NCBI GenBank assembly: GCA_028716165.1
Contig: JAQUQI010000001.1
Location: forward strand, 1 to 50,457
From: Candidatus Omnitrophota bacterium
Lineage (GTDB): Bacteria; Omnitrophota; Gorgyraeia; JABMRG01
Length of the DNA stretch: 50,457 bases
Direction of reading: 5' to 3'
Part shown: positions 25,721-50,235 of the stretch, piece by piece
How the letters are laid out: each line of letters opens with the position of its first letter
Position numbering within the stretch: the first letter of the stretch is position 1
Position numbers and translations under genes: made by a program
The notes under the pieces: generated by a model
What the model was told of the DNA's origin: nothing
What the model saw: only the letters and a program-made list of their open reading frames with translations
Database searches by the model: none

Positions 25721-26611
25721 TCAGGGCCTTTTATGCGCGTCTACCGCGCGCCTTACACTTTTTATATGTTCCGGCGTCGTGCCGCAGCATCCTCCGATAA
25801 TATTGGCGCCTTTCTCAATAAGAGAAATCGTGTGCTTGCCAAAGCATTCGGCAGTCTCGTCATATACGATCCTGTCCGATTCCATTCTCGGCATTCCCGC
25901 GTTTGGCTGGGCTATAATGGCTGACGCTTTCTGCTCTTTTATCCCTAAAACAATATCCGCCATATCAATGCCGGTGACTGTGCAATTGGAACCTATAATA
26001 TCAGCTCCCGCTTTAACGGCCTGTTCAACGAAACAGGCTATATTTATGCCTGATGTTGTTTTAAAGCTTTTGTCCTTTAACCGCTGAAAAGTCATGCTGG
26101 CGATAACAGGCAATTTCGTATTATCCTTCACGGCAAGTATAGCACAGTTTAATTCCTGCATATCGTAAAATGTCTCTAATAAAATAAGATCAACCCTCGC
26201 GTCTTCAAGTGTCCGCGCCTGTTCGGCAAAAATATTATACATCTGGTCAAACTCAATATCTCCCACAGGTTTTATATATTCTCCGCTGGGGCCTATATCA
26301 CCGAGCACATAGGCCTTGTCCCGGGCGGCCTGCCTGGCAAGTTCGGCAGAAATCGTGTTTATCTGCCGCACCTTGTCCTGCAGGCTAAACCTCTTAAGCT
26401 TCAACCAGTTGGAGCCAAAAGTATTTGTTGTTATCATATCGGCTCCTGCCTGTATATAGGACTTGTGTATATCAAGCAGTTTCTTATGATTTACCATGCC
26501 CCAGTAATCCGGGCATTCCCCCTCTGGCATGCCGTTTTGCATAAGCATAGTCCCCATCGCGCCATCGCAAACCAATACCTCTCTGATAAGCCTTTTTTTA
26601 ATATCCTTCAT
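25721..26611 (-). CDS. Stand-alone homocysteine S-methyltransferase domain protein
   Basis: A 296-residue homocysteine-binding TIM barrel like the N-terminal module of cobalamin-dependent MetH or betaine-homocysteine methyltransferase. CDGAMGTMLMQ at 15-25 and the zinc ligands Cys210 (SNCTV) and Cys275/Cys276 (GGCCGTTP) are all present. The pterin, cobalamin and reactivation domains of full MetH are absent and not encoded nearby, so the methyl donor must come from another protein or a small molecule such as S-methylmethionine. A strong AGGAGG lies six bases before the ATG. It lies 37 bases after the HAD phosphatase gene. Confidence 0.85.
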   Translation of the reverse strand: MKDIKKRLIREVLVCDGAMGTMLMQNGMPEGECPDYWGMVNHKKLLDIHKSYIQAGADMITTNTFGSNWLKLKRFSLQDKVRQINTISAELARQAARDKAYVLGDIGPSGEYIKPVGDIEFDQMYNIFAEQARTLEDARVDLILLETFYDMQELNCAILAVKDNTKLPVIASMTFQRLKDKSFKTTSGINIACFVEQAVKAGADIIGSNCTVTGIDMADIVLGIKEQKASAIIAQPNAGMPRMESDRIVYDETAECFGKHTISLIEKGANIIGGCCGTTPEHIKSVRRAVDAHKRP

Positions 26612-40125: not shown

Positions 40126-41265
40126 TCACCTCATAGCAGGGGAAGGGACAATACCGGCAAAATATTCATATGCCTTTTGCAGTTTATCAAAATTTTTATT
40201 CCAGTCAGCTTCATTCCGCGCTATATCAAGATTAACCGCGCTCATTTTTTTTCTTAAAGCCTCGTCCCCAAACAGCCTTACCACATTACAAGCGAATGCG
40301 TGTTCATCTTTTATAGGCGAAATAAGCCCGTTTATTCCGTCCTTGACCCATTCCATGTTTGCCGGCACATCCGTGACAATTACCGGCATGCCGCAGGAAA
40401 AAGCCTCAAACAAAGACTGCGAGGTCCCGTCACTTAATGATGTTGAGATATAGATATCGGCATCATTTAAATAGCTTGGCATTTCATGATTGGGAATAGG
40501 GCCTGTAAAAAATATAAAACCCTCAAGCCCCATATCGCGGACCAGGCTCTTTAACCTGCTCTCTTCGGGCCCGGAACCGGTTATTATCACTCTGGCAAGC
40601 GGTTCATGCTTAAGTATATCGGGAAAAGCCTTTATTATAAGATCTATATTATAAACATAATATAAATTTCTGGTTGATATCAAAACCTTTTTCCCTTCAA
40701 GGCCGAGCTTTTTCCTGAAACCAGAAGACCTGTTGTCCTTGTTAAAAACCTTAGGGTCAAGTCCGTAACGAAAAAAGATAAAATGACGGTCTTGGCGTCC
40801 GGCCAGCGACTTTACTTTGGTTTTTACCGCCTGGCAGTCGCAGATAACGGCATCGGCCTGCCTTAATGAATACCGGACCACCTGCCGGCATATCCAGAAC
40901 ATGTCTGGGTGCCGCAAAACATCACAGCCCCAGGGCATGATCAGATGCGGATGAAAGCCTGAAAGAGCGGCTAAAAAACCGTCTTTCCAGATAAACCCGC
41001 TATGAATAATATCCGGCTTTATTTGCCTGATAATATTTTTGAAATCCCGGGTTTTGGCAAAAAATAAAAATTTCTGAATACTGTGAAAATATCTGGGCCT
41101 GCGGTGTATTATATTAAGGCCCTTGTCCTTAAGAGACATTATATTCTGCGGCAGGTCACCGTCCAAATAGGTGACCAGATATGCCTGTGAAAACCTATTT
41201 GTCATTTCACGCAGTATCTTATAATCATGTATCGTCAAAACGCTTGATACAAAGCATACTCTCAT
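40126..41265 (-). CDS. GT4 glycosyltransferase
   Basis: A 379-residue GT-B retaining glycosyltransferase. The donor-binding C-terminal domain has STRNLYYVYNIDLII, GSGPEESRLKSL, and SDGTSQSLFEAFSCGMPV, the E-x7-E region with Asp in place of the first Glu. The N-terminal acceptor domain has no signal peptide, so it works at the cytoplasmic face. Its ATG overlaps the epimerase stop as ATGA. Substrate unknown. Confidence 0.88.
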   Translation of the reverse strand: MRVCFVSSVLTIHDYKILREMTNRFSQAYLVTYLDGDLPQNIMSLKDKGLNIIHRRPRYFHSIQKFLFFAKTRDFKNIIRQIKPDIIHSGFIWKDGFLAALSGFHPHLIMPWGCDVLRHPDMFWICRQVVRYSLRQADAVICDCQAVKTKVKSLAGRQDRHFIFFRYGLDPKVFNKDNRSSGFRKKLGLEGKKVLISTRNLYYVYNIDLIIKAFPDILKHEPLARVIITGSGPEESRLKSLVRDMGLEGFIFFTGPIPNHEMPSYLNDADIYISTSLSDGTSQSLFEAFSCGMPVIVTDVPANMEWVKDGINGLISPIKDEHAFACNVVRLFGDEALRKKMSAVNLDIARNEADWNKNFDKLQKAYEYFAGIVPSPAMR

Positions 41266-42119
41266 CTATTAACGCTCCAATTTCTGTATTTCATTATCCC
41301 TTCGCGCAACCGCGTGTCCGCGCTCCACGATAATTGCTTGACGGCATCTTCAAGGCCTTCTATATTTCCAGTATAATCATCAGGCCTTTGTTTCGATCCG
41401 TCAATTTTTATGGTGGAATCGGATGATAATACGTCCTTAACTAAAAAAGCGAGATCTTTTATTGAAACAGCTTCACTGCTTGACAGCACAAAGGTCTTGT
41501 TCGCGGCGGCAGAGCATAAGGCCGCGGCACAGCCTCTTGCTATGTCTTCGGCATAGGTAAAATTCCTCTTTTGCCGGCCTGAACCGTGTATTATTATATC
41601 GTCATTATTTAAAGCCTTTTTGACAAATATGGAAACGACGTCTTCTCCCCTGCTTCCCGGCCCGTAAGCGGTGGCAAAGCGTAATATGGTGTAATCAAGG
41701 CCATAAAGAAGGTGATAATTTTTACACAGCATTTCAGAGGCAAGTTTAGTCGTGGTATATATGTGGCCCTGTCCGCCGCAGATATATATACTGCTGGCAA
41801 ATAAAAAACGCCTGACACCGGAATTCCTGCACTCTTCCAGAAGATACGCCGTGCCCATTATATTGGATTCTATGGTTTCAATCGGATTATCCTTAACAAA
41901 GTCAATATTTGAGAAAGCGCCTATATGATAAACAATGTCCTGGCCCTTAACCGCTCCGGCTATATCATGCCTGGAGCGCAAATCGCCTTTTACAAATTCC
42001 GCCCTGTCTTGATACGGATTTTTAATGTCAAAAATCCGAACCTTATGTCCTGCCTGAATCAGCGCGCCGGCTATATGACTGCCTATAAAACCGCTACCCC
42101 CTGTTACGAGAACATTCAT
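41262..42119 (-). CDS. NAD-dependent sugar epimerase/dehydratase (extended SDR)
   Basis: A 285-residue extended short-chain dehydrogenase acting on a nucleotide sugar. TGGSGFIGSH at 6-15 binds NAD; FASSIYICGG, YTTTK (catalytic Tyr and Lys) and RFATAYGPG are the usual motifs. The exact reaction (4-epimerase, dehydratase, reductase) is not clear. GGAGG lies six bases before the ATG, within the end of the aminotransferase gene, with which it overlaps by 26 bases. Confidence 0.88.
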   Translation of the reverse strand: MNVLVTGGSGFIGSHIAGALIQAGHKVRIFDIKNPYQDRAEFVKGDLRSRHDIAGAVKGQDIVYHIGAFSNIDFVKDNPIETIESNIMGTAYLLEECRNSGVRRFLFASSIYICGGQGHIYTTTKLASEMLCKNYHLLYGLDYTILRFATAYGPGSRGEDVVSIFVKKALNNDDIIIHGSGRQKRNFTYAEDIARGCAAALCSAAANKTFVLSSSEAVSIKDLAFLVKDVLSSDSTIKIDGSKQRPDDYTGNIEGLEDAVKQLSWSADTRLREGIMKYRNWSVNR

Positions 42120-43254
42120 ATACAGCCTCCTTTAAAGACGCTACTATATATTCCAGTTCGCGCAGCGTAAGCCCGGGATACAAAGGAAGGCATATGTGAC
42201 GCGCGCATACATAATCCGTGACAGGAAAACTGTCACTTTTTTTATTATCCATTTTTTCAGGGTATTTGCCAAATACCGGCTGGCTGTGGCAGGGATGCGA
42301 ATACACTTCTCCCGGAAGGCATATATCATATCTGTCTTTTAATAACTGCTTAAGCCTGCCGCGGTCTATTGCCTCGTCAATATAGACCATATATTTATAA
42401 TAGGCCGAGATAACCTCATCCGGTATCTTGACAAGGCTTATGCCGTTTAATCCCGCCAGGTTTTGATCATAAAAACGTGCTATATTGCGCCTTTGTTTCA
42501 ATATCCATTCAGATTTGGCCATCTGCCTTATGCCAAGCACCGCGTGTATTTCGCTGAAACGCCAATTATCTCCAAACTCCACGTGAACATTTTGTTTATG
42601 ATCTGCCTTGCCGTGCTCTCTAAGGACAATGGCCTTACGGTATATCTGTTCATTATCCGTGGTAAGCATGCCGCCTTCGGCAGTGGTAAAAACCTTGGTA
42701 GGATAAAACGAAAAAGAACCCGCCAGGGCGAGAGAACCTGCCATCTTGTTTTTAAAAACAGCCCCATGCGCGTGCGCGGCATCTTCTATCAAAAAGATAT
42801 TATTCTCTTGGCATATACGCTTTATCCTGTCAAAATGAGGCGAAATAATGCCTCCGATATGGACAACTATCACAGCCTTGACGCGCGGAGTTATCTTTCT
42901 TTCAATATCATCGGGGTCTATCTGAAAATTTTCTTTCTGACACTCGGCAAATATCACCTTTGCCCCTGCCTTGACAACAGCGATAGGGGTCGCCATATAA
43001 GTATTGGAAGGCACTATGACGCTTGAACCTTCAACCCCTATGGCCCGTAAAGCTATTTCAATAGAGCTGGTGCCGGAGTTGGTAGCAACAGCATATTTGG
43101 TATTACAAAACCTTGCAAACAGCTCTTCAAATTCAGCGACTCTGCCATTCATGGTAAGATGACCGCTTCGCAGGACCTTTTCTATTCCGTCTTTTATAAA
43201 CCTGATATCACTTTCATCATACGGAACTCTCAATATAGGAATATTCATTTTCAT
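42094..43254 (-). CDS. DegT/DnrJ/EryC1/StrS family sugar aminotransferase
   Basis: A 386-residue PLP enzyme that aminates a keto-sugar nucleotide. TNSGTSSIEIAL, VPSNTYMATPIAV, EDAAHAHGA, and SFSFYPTKVFTTAEGGML with the Schiff-base Lys are all present. I start at the ATG at 43254, seven bases after AAGGA; the frame is open two codons further to a GTG. With the epimerase and reductase nearby it implies an amino sugar, perhaps an aminodideoxy sugar, in the surface glycan. Confidence 0.92.
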   Translation of the reverse strand: MKMNIPILRVPYDESDIRFIKDGIEKVLRSGHLTMNGRVAEFEELFARFCNTKYAVATNSGTSSIEIALRAIGVEGSSVIVPSNTYMATPIAVVKAGAKVIFAECQKENFQIDPDDIERKITPRVKAVIVVHIGGIISPHFDRIKRICQENNIFLIEDAAHAHGAVFKNKMAGSLALAGSFSFYPTKVFTTAEGGMLTTDNEQIYRKAIVLREHGKADHKQNVHVEFGDNWRFSEIHAVLGIRQMAKSEWILKQRRNIARFYDQNLAGLNGISLVKIPDEVISAYYKYMVYIDEAIDRGRLKQLLKDRYDICLPGEVYSHPCHSQPVFGKYPEKMDNKKSDSFPVTDYVCARHICLPLYPGLTLRELEYIVASLKEAVYECSRNRG

Positions 43255-43287
43255 GTTCACGTCCTTATGTTTTGCTCTCCGCAGGCC

Positions 43288-44811
43288 TTATGTTTGTTTT
43301 GTTTTTAAAAATCTTTGCCCGCTAACCACTTTACGCCCTCTGCTTACAACATCTGCTCTATCTGGATCATTCTTTTCCAAAAGACTATTAAGGTAAAAAT
43401 TCTGTTTTTCGACCCATGTTTCAAATTCTTTCTGATCAGCAAATCCATCAACCTTAATAAGAGAATTTCGATAAATCATATCATCTGTTTTTCTATCAGG
43501 ATTCCACCAAAGATTTTCTTTCATAACCTTTCTGTAAATTGGCGTACCAGGAAGGGGTGCCAAGATAGCTACAGAAAAACTATCAGCTCCTGATTGTGCA
43601 GCAAACTTGATTGTATCTTCCATCTCTTTCCTCGTTTCGCCAGGGTATCCAACAATCCAAAATGTATGGACAATAAGACCTGCCTCTTTAGCATTTTTTA
43701 TCGCAGGCTTTATTTGTTCAAGCTTCAAATTTTTTCTAATAATATCATCTAGGACTCTTTGCACGCCACTTTCGCATCCAAGGGTAACCTGATAGCATCC
43801 CGCCTCCTTCATTTTCAAAAACATATCAAGCTGCCTAGCTAAATGATAGTTAATCTTTATCCCATTGGGCGTACACCATGGTATTTTTAATGGCCCTATC
43901 AAATCACACAACTACATTAAATGCTGTATGTTTGCTGTCAATGAATCGTCTTCAAACTGCACCTCTCCTATGCCATACTGCTTGATACCATTTTTTATTT
44001 CAGAACAAACATCCTCAGGATCGCGCCAACGAATATTATTTCCCCACATCGCGGGGGTTGTGCAGAAAGAACACCTTTCAGGACAGCCCCGTGACGTCAT
44101 GACATTGAGCACTCTCTTGGAATATGCCTGAGATGAATGGAATAAGCCAATTCTAAAATATCCTTCCATGTTCATTAAATGCCTTGCCGGATGCGGCAGC
44201 TGCCGTATATCAACCTTATTTTTTGCTGTAGGTTTATTTATAACAATCCCTTGCTTGTTTCGAAAAACTAATCCCTCCATATCTGCGGGGTCTTGATTAT
44301 TCAATAAAGCCTTTGCCAGTTTAGCAAACTGGAAATCTGATTCTCCTATCATTGCATAGTCAATGTTTTTATCGTTCAAATCATGGGGTATATTCTCTGC
44401 TTGGCTGCATGCCGTAGCAAACCCATAATCTCGAACTGCATTAGTAATATGATTTCCTCCCAGCACAACCCTAATATTTGGATTTATTCCTTTGACAATC
44501 CTTGCAACTGTGTGCGCGTGTTCTGATAGATTTGAAAAAAGAACGGAAATCCCGACCAAATCAGGTTTTAAGTTGGAAATATAACTAGCAACAGATTCTT
44601 CAGGCTCTCCAATTTCAACCATATTAGTACCGACCAGCGGGACCTGTCTGCCATATCCTTCTAATGCCGTGTCACGAACATGTACTTCATATCCCTTTTG
44701 CTCTAAAACAGCGGCAAGGTATCCAACACCAAGACTAGGCTGTATCCTGTTTACCCCACCCTTCATGCCTTTTAGATTAGGCGTAATTAATAAAATTTTA
44801 CGTTTATTCAT
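43288..44811 (-). pseudogene. Cobalamin-binding radical SAM protein, interrupted by an in-frame amber codon
   Basis: Two frames that together make one B12-binding radical SAM protein are separated by a single TAG at 43914-43912, with no frame change. The N-terminal piece (299 residues) has the cobalamin-type domain and SRGCPERCSFCTTP with the CxxxCxxC cluster ligands, ending in FEDDSLTANIQHLM. The C-terminal piece continues LCDLIGPLKIPWCTPNGI and then GCESG, GYPGETRKE and APLPGTP. The joined 507-codon length fits the 448- and 490-residue neighbours. The TAG needs one substitution (from CAG, GAG, AAG and others). The downstream piece would have only a TTG start without a ribosome binding site. 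It is probably inactivated. The gene is AT-richer than its neighbours. Confidence 0.8.
43912..43914 (-). other. In-frame amber stop within the radical SAM gene
   Basis: The minus strand reads TTA ATG TAG TTG TGT GAT, giving L-M-stop-L-C-D in one frame. TAG is also the ordinary stop of asd, fmt and secG here, so whole-genome reassignment of amber is not supported. Read-through, suppression or an assembly error remain possible. Confidence 0.85.
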
Positions 44812-44841
44812 TTTTAGCCAGATTTTCGTCTTTTGTTTTAC

Positions 44842-46188
44842 TTATATCCTTTTACCCTTACATTTTTCATTAATATTAAAGAACTCATCTACTAAATGTT
44901 TTGATAGATTGGAATTTATTATCATCTCCTTGCTCTGATGATAAAAATATTCCCAGTGCGCCTTGCTGAAATCATGCCCCGACGCGGCCAGGTCATGGTA
45001 TATCTGCGTCCCATAATACGGCGCTACCACGCTTAAGCTATTGTAATCGGCATTGATTTCTTCAGCTAATCTTATCGTCTTTTTGACGTCCTCATCCGTT
45101 TCGCCGGGAAAACCTATCATAAAATACGCTGTCAGGGATATGCCCTCGTTTTTTATAAGAGAGACCGCTCGCTTTATCTGCTCTATAGTAATTCCCTTTT
45201 TTATCCTTTTCAGTATCTGATCGCTCCCGCTCTCAACGCCTATCTTGAGCCTGGCACAGCCGGACTTTTTCATAACGGAAAGCATTTCTTTGTCAAGCCT
45301 GTCCACGCGGGTATCGCACACCCATTGGGCATTGAGCCTTCTGGACATCATGCCTTCCAGAATGGCGCAAGAACGGGCCTTGTTCAGGGTAAAGGTATCG
45401 TCCTGAAAACGGATCAGTGACACATTATGTTCCTTTACCATATACTCCAATTCGTCAAGCACATTGCCGATACTTCTATACCGGACCTTTCTCTTCCATA
45501 TCTTCGGAGAAGCGCAATACGCGCACCTGAAAGGGCATCCGCGCGAAGTTATAACAGCTCCCGTGTCAATATACCCATCGCCTACTAAGAAACCTTTTCT
45601 TTCGGGAAAAGGCAAAGCGTCAAGATCTTCTATAAACAGCCGTTCTTCATTGTTTATAATGCGTTTGCTTTTATCGCGATAGGTCAGACCTTTTATTTGT
45701 GACAGATCCCGGCCCTCAAGTATCTCAAGCATGGTATATTCGCCTTCCCCCCTGCACACATAATCATAGGCATTGCAACTCATAGTCCCTTCAGGGTCAA
45801 GCGATGGGTGTGTGCCTCCGGCGATAACCTTGATCTTCGGATTAAAAGCCTTGGCGATAGAAGCGACATTTTGGGCGTTCTTATACGTGCCCGTATAAAC
45901 CTGTATCCCCACAATATCGGGATCAACAGACTTTATCGCGGAAGCGACCTCACGCCATATAGGATGATTACTATCATTAAGAGTCGCCTTATAATGGTCA
46001 AAATTGGCAAAAAGCTTTCTCTGGTCCAGGTAATGTGAATCGTTATAAAAATCCGCGTTATATATGACGGCTTCATGGCCGTTCTTTTTTAAAAACGACG
46101 CTATATAGGAAAGCCCGAGATCAAGGCCGTTATAATGGCTTCCCATTAATCTGTAAAATGGCGGCGCGATTAAAAGTATCCTGGACAT
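44842..46188 (-). CDS. Cobalamin-binding radical SAM protein
   Basis: A 448-residue protein with an N-terminal B12-binding-like domain (about 1-150, with GLSYIASFLKKNGHE and VGIQVY) and a radical SAM barrel. TSRGCPFRCAYCASP carries the three cluster cysteines; RFQDDTFT, GVESGSDQILKRI and GFPGETDEDV are typical later motifs. Members of this class methylate or rearrange unreactive carbons; the substrate is not predictable here. I start at the ATG at 46188 behind GAGGAG; the longer frame would begin with TTG inside that site. It lies between two related genes. Confidence 0.9.
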   Translation of the reverse strand: MSRILLIAPPFYRLMGSHYNGLDLGLSYIASFLKKNGHEAVIYNADFYNDSHYLDQRKLFANFDHYKATLNDSNHPIWREVASAIKSVDPDIVGIQVYTGTYKNAQNVASIAKAFNPKIKVIAGGTHPSLDPEGTMSCNAYDYVCRGEGEYTMLEILEGRDLSQIKGLTYRDKSKRIINNEERLFIEDLDALPFPERKGFLVGDGYIDTGAVITSRGCPFRCAYCASPKIWKRKVRYRSIGNVLDELEYMVKEHNVSLIRFQDDTFTLNKARSCAILEGMMSRRLNAQWVCDTRVDRLDKEMLSVMKKSGCARLKIGVESGSDQILKRIKKGITIEQIKRAVSLIKNEGISLTAYFMIGFPGETDEDVKKTIRLAEEINADYNSLSVVAPYYGTQIYHDLAASGHDFSKAHWEYFYHQSKEMIINSNLSKHLVDEFFNINEKCKGKRI

Positions 46189-46202
46189 CAGGCTCCTCAA
46201 TA

Positions 46203-47675
46203 TTATCTTGATTTAAGATGAAGGTTCTTGTGCGGCAAGTATTTCTTCATCTGGTAGACTTGTTCAATAATTATCTCTCTTATGTTTCTGCTTATTAAAT
46301 TATCAGGTATGGCCGGCGAAACAAGCATTTGGTATATTAACCGCAGCATATGCACAAACCAATATAGCCCTTTTGGCAAAAGCACAAACCAGTCAAAAAA
46401 TCCCTGATAACCAACAAGTGTGCGCCCTGAAATATTTTTATTATCAACCACAACCTGGGAATAATAATTGGTAGTCTCAGTAACATTGCCTGCTATAAGG
46501 CCCTCTGCTCTGCATTGTTCTCCAAGCTCCGTGCCGGGTAAAGGCATAAAGATAGAGCACATAATGCGGTCCGGCCTTAACTTACGATTAATATCAATAG
46601 TTTCCCATACCTGCTTATGGGTTTCTTTTGGCAGGCCTATCATATTGAAACTGGCTGTCATCATACCATTTTCAGCAACTGACCTGTAAGCTTCTATTAT
46701 CTTTGCCGTTGATATGTTTTTCTTGAGTACTTTATTGCGTATATACTCATTTCCGCTTTCAATAGCCATATTTACCATGAAACAGCCTGCATCGGCTAAT
46801 TCTCTGGCCATTTTTTTATCCATATAATCTGCTCTTGTCTGAACCATAAAAGGCTTATTAATACGCTTCTTATACTCTTGGCAGAATTCTATAGCGCGCT
46901 GTTTATCAAGTGTAAACATTTCATCTGAAAGATAAAAAGAAGGGGCCTGGTATTTCTCTATAACATACTCCATCTCCTTAAACACATTGTCAAGGCTTCT
47001 ATGACGCACAAACCTGCCTTTACCCTTATAATGCTCCATAAGAGCCTTGTTTTGACAAAAACTGCATAAGAAAGGGCAGCCTCTTGCGGTAAGAATATTC
47101 GCCCCTGTAAGTTCTGCGCGGTAATATTCCGGCTCAAACAAGTCCCTGTCTGGAAACGGTAGCTGGTCTAGATTATCGATTAACTCAGGACAGCCATTAC
47201 GATAAATGCGCCCCTGGCTGTCTTTTGCCCAGATTCCTTCTGTTTTTGTAGTATCTTCCCTGTTTCCAAGGCGTTTTAGGAATTCTACAAAGACATGCTC
47301 CCCTTCACCTGTACATATATAATCTACCTCTTTTTCTGCTATACTTTTCTCAGGCTCCAGTATAGGCTGGATACCTCCCCAGATAACCGGTATTTTAAAT
47401 AAATTTTTAGCAATCCACGACAGCCTCTTTGTCAGAGCATAATCCTGCACCATAACTGAAAATGCGACAATATCAGGGCTAAAGTCTTCTATATATTTTA
47501 AGAACCCCTCTTCTACACGTTGCGATATATTTTTATGCCATGATATTTTCTTATACGGGCTGAAGTGAAACAGCCTGGTAGTATGGCCCGCTTCCCTGCA
47601 CGCGGCGCTGACGTACATGACATTAAGCGGCACCTCTCTTACTATATATCCTGGATAGACAAATAGTATTTTCAT
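46203..47675 (-). CDS. Cobalamin-binding radical SAM protein with C-terminal extension
   Basis: A 490-residue relative of the two downstream genes. The N-terminal cobalamin-type domain includes VGI-like VAFSVMVQD and WGGIQPILEPEKS; TARGCPFLCSFCQNK holds the cluster cysteines; AIESGNEYIRNKV and GLPKETHKQV follow. About 90 C-terminal residues are hydrophobic and aromatic in part (WFVLLPKGLYWFVHMLRLIY), suggesting membrane contact and possibly a lipid-linked substrate. Its ATG overlaps the GT2 stop as ATGA. Confidence 0.9.
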   Translation of the reverse strand: MKILFVYPGYIVREVPLNVMYVSAACREAGHTTRLFHFSPYKKISWHKNISQRVEEGFLKYIEDFSPDIVAFSVMVQDYALTKRLSWIAKNLFKIPVIWGGIQPILEPEKSIAEKEVDYICTGEGEHVFVEFLKRLGNREDTTKTEGIWAKDSQGRIYRNGCPELIDNLDQLPFPDRDLFEPEYYRAELTGANILTARGCPFLCSFCQNKALMEHYKGKGRFVRHRSLDNVFKEMEYVIEKYQAPSFYLSDEMFTLDKQRAIEFCQEYKKRINKPFMVQTRADYMDKKMARELADAGCFMVNMAIESGNEYIRNKVLKKNISTAKIIEAYRSVAENGMMTASFNMIGLPKETHKQVWETIDINRKLRPDRIMCSIFMPLPGTELGEQCRAEGLIAGNVTETTNYYSQVVVDNKNISGRTLVGYQGFFDWFVLLPKGLYWFVHMLRLIYQMLVSPAIPDNLISRNIREIIIEQVYQMKKYLPHKNLHLKSR

Positions 47676-48598
47676 TCTTTATTATTCCTGACAGCATACC
47701 ATGCCTTTTGAAAATAATATGACAGAAAAATTGGGTCCGCGCAAAAAGCCAGCATGAGATATTTAATGCCGTTACCAGCGCGTTTAGACCTAAAATATTC
47801 CTTTGATGCCCTGAAATAAACAAGCGCCCGTCTTCTGCGCATCAAATACCAGGCCATTAAGTGTATTTTGTTTAAATCTGCATAGCGTTTATAGTGTTCC
47901 TTAAGAACGCAAAGTTCACCCTTTAACATAGTATCTAACTCTTTAGAGAAATTTGAATCATGTTTCGAGCATTCCCCTAGGACAAGGTTTGAAGAATAAA
48001 ACTTGCGCCCTGCCTTTGCCATTCTAAGCAATAGATCATAGTCCTCGACAAAATGCATATTAGTTCTGTCTTCAGAAAAAAACTCAGTCGCGCCTTCAAC
48101 TACTCTTGAAAATGTAACTGCTGATGTTGAAAATATATTATCAGCAAACTTATTATCAAATAGCATCTGCCTGTAAACATCGCCTTTAATAGGTTCGGGC
48201 CTGAAAACACGCGTTATGTTACCATTACTACGAACATTCTGGCTATGGCATATGACATTTATTTCCGGATTGCTTTTATAAATTTCGGCCACTTTCGCGA
48301 GCTTGTCTTGATACCATATGTCATCTTGATCAAGTATTGCTATAATATCCCCTGTTGCTTCGCGTATTCCAGCATTTCTTGCTGCACCTAAACCCTTGTT
48401 TTCCTGTTTTCTGTATATAAAACAAGTACCACTATGCTTAGAAATATACCTTTGCACAATCTCTTCTACATTATCAGGCGAACCATCATTCACTAGTATA
48501 ATCTCATAATCCTTATATGTCTGCGCCAGAACACTGTCTAGCGTAGCTTCTATAAATCTGCTGCCATTATATAATGGTATGATTATGGAAAATTTCAT
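47672..48598 (-). CDS. GT2 family glycosyltransferase
   Basis: A 308-residue GT-A inverting glycosyltransferase. IIPLYNGSRFIEATLDSVL, LVNDGSPDN, GLGAARNAGIREA and the metal-binding LDQDDIWY are all classic. The C-terminal part is soluble and basic. It acts at the cytoplasmic face of the membrane on a surface-glycan precursor. Its start overlaps the RmlD-like gene stop. Confidence 0.92.
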   Translation of the reverse strand: MKFSIIIPLYNGSRFIEATLDSVLAQTYKDYEIILVNDGSPDNVEEIVQRYISKHSGTCFIYRKQENKGLGAARNAGIREATGDIIAILDQDDIWYQDKLAKVAEIYKSNPEINVICHSQNVRSNGNITRVFRPEPIKGDVYRQMLFDNKFADNIFSTSAVTFSRVVEGATEFFSEDRTNMHFVEDYDLLLRMAKAGRKFYSSNLVLGECSKHDSNFSKELDTMLKGELCVLKEHYKRYADLNKIHLMAWYLMRRRRALVYFRASKEYFRSKRAGNGIKYLMLAFCADPIFLSYYFQKAWYAVRNNKE

Positions 48599-49479
48599 TT
48601 ATTCTTATTCGTTTCTATATACTCTTTCAGGCAATACTGCCAATCAGGCATATTATTTATATTCAGCATATCCATTTTAAAATTACGCATTATCTCAGAC
48701 CTAGCCCTTGGTGCAGGCAAAGGATATTTGTCTGAACCCACAGGCTGGATACTGACACTATCCTTGAGCCCCATAAATTCGACTATCTTAACCGCCATAT
48801 CATAGCGAGAGCATTCGCCTTTGCACGCCAGGTGATACGTGCCATAACGCTGCGTGTTTATAATATTCATAAAGTTTAACGCAAAATATTTTGTAAATGT
48901 AGGGGTGCCAAACTTGTCGTTTACAACAGTTAACTGCTTTTTGCCTTCCTTAAGCTGTTTTACGATTTTGTAAACAAATTTTTTGTCTATCTCCCACCCG
49001 CCGACCATCCATCCGGCCCGTATAATAAAATACTCGTTCAACAGATCTTTTACTATATATTCACCCTCCAGCTTACTCTTACCATATACATTTATAGGGT
49101 TTGGCGTATCAAATTCAGTATAAGGGCCTTCTTTATCACCATAAAACACGCCTGCCGTGCTCACGTAAAGCAGTTTTACATTATACCTCTGGCAGGCTAA
49201 GGCGATATTCTCTGTTCCGAAAGTGTTGGCATAGAAGGCATGGTCCGGTTTTTCTTCGCACAAATCCACATTTGTCTCCGCCGCAAAATGAAACACATAA
49301 TCAGGCTTATGCTTACCGATCTGCTTGAATACTTCCTTAGAGTCTGTTATATCCAATTTTCTTATCACAGGAAGCCTTTGGTTGATATCTGTTTGTATCA
49401 ACTCATGCCCCTGCTTAATAAGCGCCGGGATAACATCCGCGGAAAGCATGCCGGCTGAACCTGTAATTAGGATTTTCAT
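48595..49479 (-). CDS. RmlD-like dTDP-4-dehydrorhamnose reductase/sugar reductase
   Basis: A 294-residue extended SDR of the RmlD group. ITGSAGMLSADVIPAL at 4-19 is the NAD(P)-binding turn, STAGVFYGDKEGPYTEFDTPNP and YGKSKLEGE (catalytic Tyr and Lys) follow, then RAGWMVGG. These match RmlD, which makes dTDP-L-rhamnose, but rmlA, rmlB and rmlC are not in the window, so another deoxysugar is equally possible. AGGAGA lies before the ATG. It is 15 bases from the kinase-like gene. Confidence 0.87.
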   Translation of the reverse strand: MKILITGSAGMLSADVIPALIKQGHELIQTDINQRLPVIRKLDITDSKEVFKQIGKHKPDYVFHFAAETNVDLCEEKPDHAFYANTFGTENIALACQRYNVKLLYVSTAGVFYGDKEGPYTEFDTPNPINVYGKSKLEGEYIVKDLLNEYFIIRAGWMVGGWEIDKKFVYKIVKQLKEGKKQLTVVNDKFGTPTFTKYFALNFMNIINTQRYGTYHLACKGECSRYDMAVKIVEFMGLKDSVSIQPVGSDKYPLPAPRARSEIMRNFKMDMLNINNMPDWQYCLKEYIETNKNK

Positions 49480-49494: not shown

Positions 49495-50235
49495 TTAACT
49501 TTTTAATAACGCGTCTAATTTTTCAATAATACATTTAGTACCGGGGTCGTGACTGTATGCTATAAAAGGGCACCTCTTATAATCCACGCCTGTTTTTCTA
49601 ACATAGTCCAGCGCCATATCCAGACACCATCTTCCCGGGGCCTTTTTAATCCCGCAAGCCGCGCCGACTTCTTTCTCTATCTTGAAGAATAAGCTATGAT
49701 AAACAGAAATTTCAGCCTTAGACAAAAAACCCCTTTTGGCCAGGCTGCAAAGCACGTTTTCAGTAATACAATAAATAAGGTCATACTCGCGGGGCATTAT
49801 ATCATTCGCATTTTCCCAATCCATTATCCATTTAACCGATGAACCTTCAAACAAAACATTGCTTATTGAAAAATCGCCATGGGATATCAGCTCTTTGTTA
49901 TCACAGAACACTCTCCTGTAATAGGATATAAGATCTGATAGTTTCTGATAATTCTTATCTAATTGCGCCATATAATCGCCCGGCATGCCATTGTGATACT
50001 TTAGCTCCATCTTCCCGTAAGAATCCAGTAATTTAAAATTTATTATATTCTTTTCACGTCCAGTGTTAAGGCGCTCGGAGTATTTTGATATGCCCTGCAA
50101 TTCTCTGGATAAGGCCATGACACCCTTTGCCGAAAATGTTGTCCGGACTATGAGCACAGGCAGGCCATTATCATCTGTCTTAATACCTGTGCATACATCA
50201 CCATTGTGGCTGCAATTTCTTATAATATTTATCAT
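49495..50235 (-). CDS. APH/choline-kinase-like phosphotransferase
   Basis: A 246-residue protein with the core of the aminoglycoside/choline kinase fold: ISHGDFSISNVLFEG (the catalytic-loop HGDxxxxN) and IMDWENANDIMPREYDL (the metal-binding Asp). The N-terminal lobe is short and the usual ATP-lobe motifs are hard to see. In a glycan cluster it may phosphorylate a sugar or choline/ethanolamine-like group rather than an antibiotic. The ATG overlaps the stop of the upstream gene as ATGA. Confidence 0.75.
   Translation of the reverse strand: MINIIRNCSHNGDVCTGIKTDDNGLPVLIVRTTFSAKGVMALSRELQGISKYSERLNTGREKNIINFKLLDSYGKMELKYHNGMPGDYMAQLDKNYQKLSDLISYYRRVFCDNKELISHGDFSISNVLFEGSSVKWIMDWENANDIMPREYDLIYCITENVLCSLAKRGFLSKAEISVYHSLFFKIEKEVGAACGIKKAPGRWCLDMALDYVRKTGVDYKRCPFIAYSHDPGTKCIIEKLDALLKS

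Follow-up and report, generated by a model that had tools for sequence, protein, structure and literature searches.

The window analysed here covers the first 50,457 nucleotides of a 301-kb contig (JAQUQI010000001.1) in the genome of a Candidatus Omnitrophota bacterium (assembly GCA_028716165.1; 1.6 Mb, 27 contigs). It carries three consecutive minus-strand genes, termed A, B and C below, each coding for a B12-binding domain (PF02310) and a radical S-adenosylmethionine (SAM) domain (PF04055) with a CxxxCxxC motif. This visible triad is best read as part of a mosaic glycan locus, in which independently assembled B12-radical SAM tailoring enzymes lie side by side, and not as one three-step pathway. 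A more specific proposal, which falls slightly short of an even chance, is that A was acquired for the methylation of a cytidylyl-phosphonate, while B acts on an amino-sugar and C on a glycan intermediate attached to a membrane or a lipid.

The initial annotation of the window had considered it plausible that A, B and C, taken as paralogues, modify a single sugar or lipid carrier in succession, by C-methylation or a change of the carbon skeleton, yielding an amino, deoxy, C-branched sugar. The three neighbouring genes are indeed present, with both domains and the cysteine motif in each. In B and C, PF02310 and PF04055 score above their cut-offs and the invariant cysteines are in place, as in class B radical SAM enzymes. 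The genes are co-oriented and tightly packed with those for RmlD, GT2, DegT, an epimerase and GT4, in an operon-like manner (C and GT2 overlap by 4 nt; gaps of 2 nt between C and B, 30 nt between B and A, and 27 nt between A and DegT), which speaks for a common pathway. Orthologues, however, are single and rare. Among 384 genomes of the phylum searched at E<=1e-85, A has an orthologue in one other genome (G045, 51% identity) and B in six (41-42% in G079 and G272, 36-39% elsewhere), no relative of C was found, and none of the 384 holds all three, so that the triad as a conserved unit is rejected. A tree of 111 B12-radical SAM proteins distributes A, B and C over three separate, supported clades, distinct and old, and a recent tandem duplication is rejected on the same ground. 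Furthermore, G079 and G272 hold B together with sugar genes but neither A nor C, and A is interrupted (see below) and differs from B in composition. The G+C content of B (44%) matches that of DegT, the epimerase and GT4 (43-44%), whereas those of A (37-41%) and C (40%) differ, which fits an insertion of A between B and DegT. The grouping of the three genes is not a product of chance, but tandem genes of this kind are common in the phylum (three in a row in L097 and in L105, five in L112), and a first look returned up to ~50 B12-radical SAM candidates per genome. A run of three in G045 includes the orthologue of A, and in G354 a B-like gene adjoins a C-like one, in reverse order; both fit a sequential action. 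On balance, the single sequential pathway appears improbable, although C-branched sugar chemistry for B and C is possible.

Profile scores and phylogeny bring protein A close to phosphonate methyltransferases. Its top NCBIfam match is NF038361 (Sden_1168 P-methyltransferase), with 248 bits against 154 for the next family and a cut-off of 575; its HpnJ (TIGR03471) score is 154 bits, below the cut-off of 577.6. The same pattern is displayed by a Streptomyces Fom3 (293 bits on NF038361, 138 on the next family). This protein, from locus L116, was taken as Fom3 because of the fosfomycin-type cluster around its gene, which lies upstream of BLAST matches to the decarboxylase subunit and the dehydrogenase of the Omnitrophota locus, and of a gene that we take, by eye, to resemble the HppE epoxidase. 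A second, careful tree places A and its G045 orthologue together with two Streptomyces Fom3, a G074 protein, two G257 proteins and L015, a protein from a genome lacking a phosphoenolpyruvate (PEP) mutase (PepM), with a support of 80/97. A wider clade of 20 members, mostly from PepM-less genomes, reaches 99/98. A constrained clade uniting A, its orthologue and the Fom3 or PepM-adjacent members without L015 is narrowly unrejected (approximately unbiased test, p-AU 0.063). A is 30% identical to Fom3 across 315 residues in its N-terminal half, and its orthologue ~31% identical over residues 8-447. One of the three enzymes thus appears to fall among the Fom3/Sden_1168 phosphonate methyltransferases, that is, families of known and unrelated substrate such as the initial annotation had itself named as evidence against its pathway, and the substrate class that it gave to A is likely wrong.

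An A-clade gene and a PepM gene are adjacent in two genomes, G074 and G257. In G074 (contig C33), a protein 64% identical to Streptomyces Fom3 (L159:9558-11183) is encoded beside a PEP mutase (L159:11284-12999), in a locus that also harbors Ppd-like, alcohol dehydrogenase (ADH)-like and small cytidylyltransferase-like genes, detected as matches to the operon described below. This is apparently a fosfomycin-type early pathway outside Streptomyces. In G257 (contig C27), two NF038361 members (L160:8654-10282 and L160:14646-16346, with 597 and 765 bits for the cut-off of 575) flank a PEP mutase, and the run also holds a cytidine diphosphate (CDP)-alcohol transferase and a class V aminotransferase. 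More generally, an A-clade gene does not serve as an indicator that its genome also encodes PepM, which is present in only one of the nine genomes with A-clade relatives.

Beyond the window, the contig carries candidate genes for the synthesis of a possible substrate of A. At 75198-78171, on the strand of A and in the same glycan block, are found an iron-containing alcohol dehydrogenase, Ppd-like alpha and beta subunits, and a cytidylyltransferase-PEP mutase fusion (PF01467 and PF13714; 76891-78171, or L095:9892-11172). Fom1, Fom2 and FomC lead to 2-hydroxyethylphosphonate (HEP)-cytidine monophosphate (CMP), the C2 of which is methylated by Fom3 (PMC8158854). The corresponding supply genes (cytidylyltransferase-PepM, Ppd and ADH) share the cluster with A, as expected for a Fom3. 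A CDP-alcohol transferase (PF01066, confirmed with Pfam) is encoded at contig positions 51278-52150, 3.6 kb from C. The same four-gene operon occurs in G072, from another class of the phylum, with 71-76% identity (49% for the ADH), and is followed there by a CDP-alcohol transferase homologue, recognised by its BLAST match to the copy studied here and its active-site motif. The PEP mutase domain scores 232 bits on TIGR02320 (cut-off 319.55) and 168 bits on PF13714, above cut-off, with an EDN...NS motif. In phosphonate clusters whose presumed role is the modification of the cell surface, fusions of a cytidylyltransferase and a PEP mutase are frequent (PMC6697681). The operon context points to phosphonate synthesis despite the EDN motif.

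Several observations weigh against a phosphonate as the substrate of A. Some 30 kb separate the gene from the phosphonate operon, and in G072 this operon is present without any A-like gene. The fusions of the contig and of G072 (L122) read EDNxxxxxNS where the published motif is EDKxxxxxNS. The Ppd and ADH matches are below the NCBIfam cut-offs, and the match of Ppd beta is equally good for sulfopyruvate decarboxylase. PepM-less relatives score 283-366 bits on NF038361, near or above A and Fom3, and a score of this kind was rejected as proof of P- or phosphonate methylation because such relatives score equally high. G045, host of the only close orthologue of A, lacks a PepM match, as do the genomes of many wider-clade members; clade membership is therefore no proof of phosphonate chemistry. 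A might instead be a glycan enzyme of a PepM-less branch, modifying a sugar or CMP-sugar, with the phosphonate operon nearby by coincidence. DegT, epimerase and Gfo/Idh glycan genes surround the G045 orthologue, most wider-clade members come from PepM-less genomes, several standing beside glycan genes, and the locus itself encodes PseB and PseC (both above cut-off), NeuB/PseI and PseF. Conversely, the careful tree joins A to the PepM-adjacent and fosfomycin members, away from the main PepM-less branches, and PepM, present in only ~6% of the phylum sample, occurs within this very locus. A role of A in glycan modification is possible, albeit rather unlikely, and phosphonate methylation would be the best candidate for what A originally did.

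In the assembly, the reading frame of A is broken in two and may yield no enzyme, a further point against a working phosphonate methyltransferase. It appears in the list of open reading frames (ORFs) as two ORFs of 299 and 207 aa. The in-frame TAG between them (43912-43914) was not mentioned in the initial annotation, which was right about the presence of three genes, and deprives A of the intact frame expected of a Fom3. PF02310 scores above cut-off in A; PF04055 does so for the read-through gene (76 bits), the TAG dividing this domain. Among the 34 radical SAM matches in the genome, A is the only one with an internal stop. Its TAG, at the position of a Cys in the G045 orthologue, is its only lesion, frame and length being otherwise preserved. 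Since both halves keep a similar identity to this orthologue (53% before the TAG, 46% after), the nonsense mutation would be recent, unless the base is polymorphic or wrong. If the gene is dead, or the TAG an error in a metagenome-assembled genome (MAG), A would have no present role, so that only B and C count; this is a serious possibility, though held with less than even confidence, and can be combined with any reading of the former role of A. The loss of half of the radical SAM domain at codon 300 and the occurrence of isolated stops in genes of other MAG relatives speak in its favour, as does the absence from the genome of a match above cut-off to the pyrrolysyl-tRNA synthetase PylS, while the single lesion in an otherwise intact frame and the 53%/46% identity of the two halves argue against it. 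Reading of the TAG by a recoded tRNA (pyrrolysine or suppressor), giving a functional A with a special residue, would account for the ordinary protein sequence in frame on either side of the stop. Yet the only PylS matches are weak (20 and 18 bits), and of the same kind as those in 13 of 14 control genomes; the TAG position is not conserved, and the other 33 radical SAM genes lack internal stops. Pyrrolysine or TAG recoding was rejected on these grounds and its probability is close to nil. Single in-frame stops were also observed in B12-radical SAM genes of other MAG relatives, at G214:C2:3112-4440 (L073), G054:C5:52551-53729 and G034:C49:1000-1998.

The link with glycan genes that the initial annotation had drawn is supported, most clearly for B. 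In both G079 and G272, a B homologue (41-42%) lies within ~6 kb of GT4 (37-38%), DegT (35-37%) and epimerase (28-31%) homologues. Synteny with DegT and epimerase genes, proposed at the outset as a check, therefore holds around B, with the reservations that G079 and G272 belong to one family and amount to about one independent observation, and that their DegT proteins are unexceptional against the DegT background of the phylum, so that the GT4 and B pair bears most weight. The structure that AlphaFold predicts for B (pLDDT 83) resembles those of MgmA, AprD4, OxsB, TsrM, CysS and TokK. The best TM-score is obtained with AprD4 (0.70-0.74), MgmA reaching 0.64, at 17-19% identity. B is thus predicted to adopt a cobalamin-type radical SAM fold, compatible with C-methylation, dehydration and ring contraction alike. 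C-methylation is the commonest chemistry of the cobalamin-dependent radical SAM class.

Protein C is an orphan, and its single-sequence structure model is too poor for use (pLDDT 41). The hydrophobic C-terminus noted in the initial annotation is real and belongs to C, but it is weak (Kyte-Doolittle 19-mer maximum of 1.19) and resembles an amphipathic helix more than a transmembrane segment. In most relatives from the C clade, such a stretch is equally hydrophobic or more so. That the substrate of C is attached to a membrane or a lipid is a guess suggested by this helix.

From the observed domains, gene order, clades, phosphonate operon and TAG codon, we infer substrates and reactions as follows. 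The operon at 75.2-78.2 kb of the contig would convert PEP into phosphonopyruvate, phosphonoacetaldehyde, HEP and finally CMP-HEP. A would then methylate the C2 of CMP-HEP by radical chemistry, and the CDP-alcohol transferase (51.3-52.2 kb) would transfer the product to a glycan or lipid. Given the nonsense codon, the sequenced population may have lost the methylation step, or may be polymorphic for it. B would most likely perform a radical change on an amino-sugar processed by the neighbouring DegT, epimerase and GT4 proteins, and the target of C would probably be a glycan intermediate linked to a membrane or a lipid. A bolder version, in which the Omnitrophota surface glycan or lipid bears 2-hydroxypropylphosphonate, a C-methylated phosphonate produced via a Fom1/Fom2/FomC route and a Fom3-clade enzyme, A being intact in part of the population, is unlikely; the early chemistry of fosfomycin would then be put to surface tailoring. 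If the phosphonate reading of A is right, B12 radical methylation would be tied to surface phosphonates, and the phosphonate-methylating clade would reach beyond antibiotic clusters.

Omnitrophota possess many B12-radical SAM genes of unassigned function, frequently in tandem in glycan loci, and the present locus illustrates that an apparent "triad" can be a mosaic instead of a pathway. It offers two testable handles, namely B with its GT4/DegT/epimerase neighbourhood, and a Fom3-clade gene sharing a locus with a complete CMP-phosphonate operon. Through it, a connection of B12 radical chemistry with amino-sugars and surface phosphonates can be tested. A motif filter based on EDK, as in PMC6697681, would overlook the fusions of this contig and of G072. 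Among the publications listed for Omnitrophota in connection with radical SAM, phosphonate or cobalamin, none dealt with this arrangement.

Features of the A-B-C region and its neighbours, in positions of the window
Feature	Position	Strand	Basis or remark
A, B12-binding radical SAM protein, Fom3/Sden_1168 clade, 507 codons with in-frame TAG	43288..44811	-	domains, profiles, tree
In-frame TAG, codon 300 of A	43912..43914	-	divides the CxxxCxxC half from the second radical SAM half
B, B12-binding radical SAM protein, 452 aa from TTG, HpnJ/BchE-like by profile, predicted MgmA/AprD4/TsrM-like fold	44842..46200	-	alternative ATG start four codons 3' of the TTG
C, B12-binding radical SAM protein, 490 aa, weakly hydrophobic C-terminal helix	46203..47675	-	
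DegT/DnrJ/EryC1-type sugar aminotransferase, PseC-like (below cut-off)	42094..43260	-	downstream of A
Short-chain dehydrogenase/reductase (short SDR) sugar epimerase/reductase	41262..42119	-	family profiles
GT4-type glycosyltransferase	40126..41265	-	Pfam; near B also in G079 and G272 (37-38%)
GT2-type glycosyltransferase	47672..48598	-	4-nt overlap with the start of C
RmlD-family reductase	48595..49479	-	above the TIGR01214 (dTDP-4-dehydrorhamnose reductase) cut-off
Protein without Pfam or NCBIfam match	49495..50235	-	profile scans

The genes of the table belong to a single-strand block of glycan genes that spans ~27.3 kb to 82 kb of the contig and thus extends beyond the end of the window. 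The product of 49495-50235 carries a motif (HGDFSISNVLF...DWEN) that we take, by eye only, to be aminoglycoside/choline-kinase-like. Just before the block, 25721-26611 presumably encodes a stand-alone homocysteine S-methyltransferase-like protein of the MetH N-terminal type, also read by eye. Two further B12-radical SAM genes lie in the block: D (C1:59553-60998, L094:12554-13999) and E (C1:71327-72691, L095:4328-5692), the latter in the nonulosonate operon, between PseC-like and PseF-like genes. In the tree of 111 proteins, D groups with E and with the gene adjoining the orthologue of A in G045. The nonulosonate genes comprise PseB and PseC, NeuB/PseI and a PseF-like cytidylyltransferase. C1:67470-69578 (L095:471-2579) encodes an unusual fusion protein, in which NAD-dependent epimerase, GNAT acetyltransferase and SAM methyltransferase domains are joined. 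Rfam matches, such as a cobalamin riboswitch, were absent from the window and from the remainder of the locus.

Among known systems, Fom3, the HEP-CMP C2-methyltransferase of fosfomycin synthesis, resembles A in domain order and probably shares its clade, and Fom1/Fom2/FomC-like genes share the locus of A. It differs by its low identity to A (30-31%) and by the setting of A, an interrupted gene among surface-glycan genes. HppE and FomD, which belong to the fosfomycin system, were not noticed in the annotated stretch, for which no profile search aimed at them was made. The Sden_1168 P-methyltransferase family (NF038361) and PhpK provide the top match of A by a wide margin, although its 248 bits lie below the cut-off and below the scores of the G257 members. 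For B, the solved structures closest by sequence and fold are AprD4, a radical SAM diol dehydratase acting on the sugar paromamine, and MgmA, a glutamine C-methylase, with only the low identity given above. HpnJ (TIGR03471) is the best NCBIfam match of both B (220 bits) and C (124 bits), yet both scores are far under the cut-off; this enzyme is credited with the ring contraction that leads to the bacteriohopanetetrol (BHT) cyclitol ether, HpnI and HpnK making glucosaminyl BHT (PMC8590665). Finally, the locus shares with the Fom1 and PntC-Ppm surface-phosphonate pathways the PF01467 and PF13714 fusion, Ppd, the ADH and the CDP-alcohol transferase, and is set apart from them by its EDNxxxxxNS motif, a Fom3-clade gene within the locus and the adjacent nonulosonate genes.

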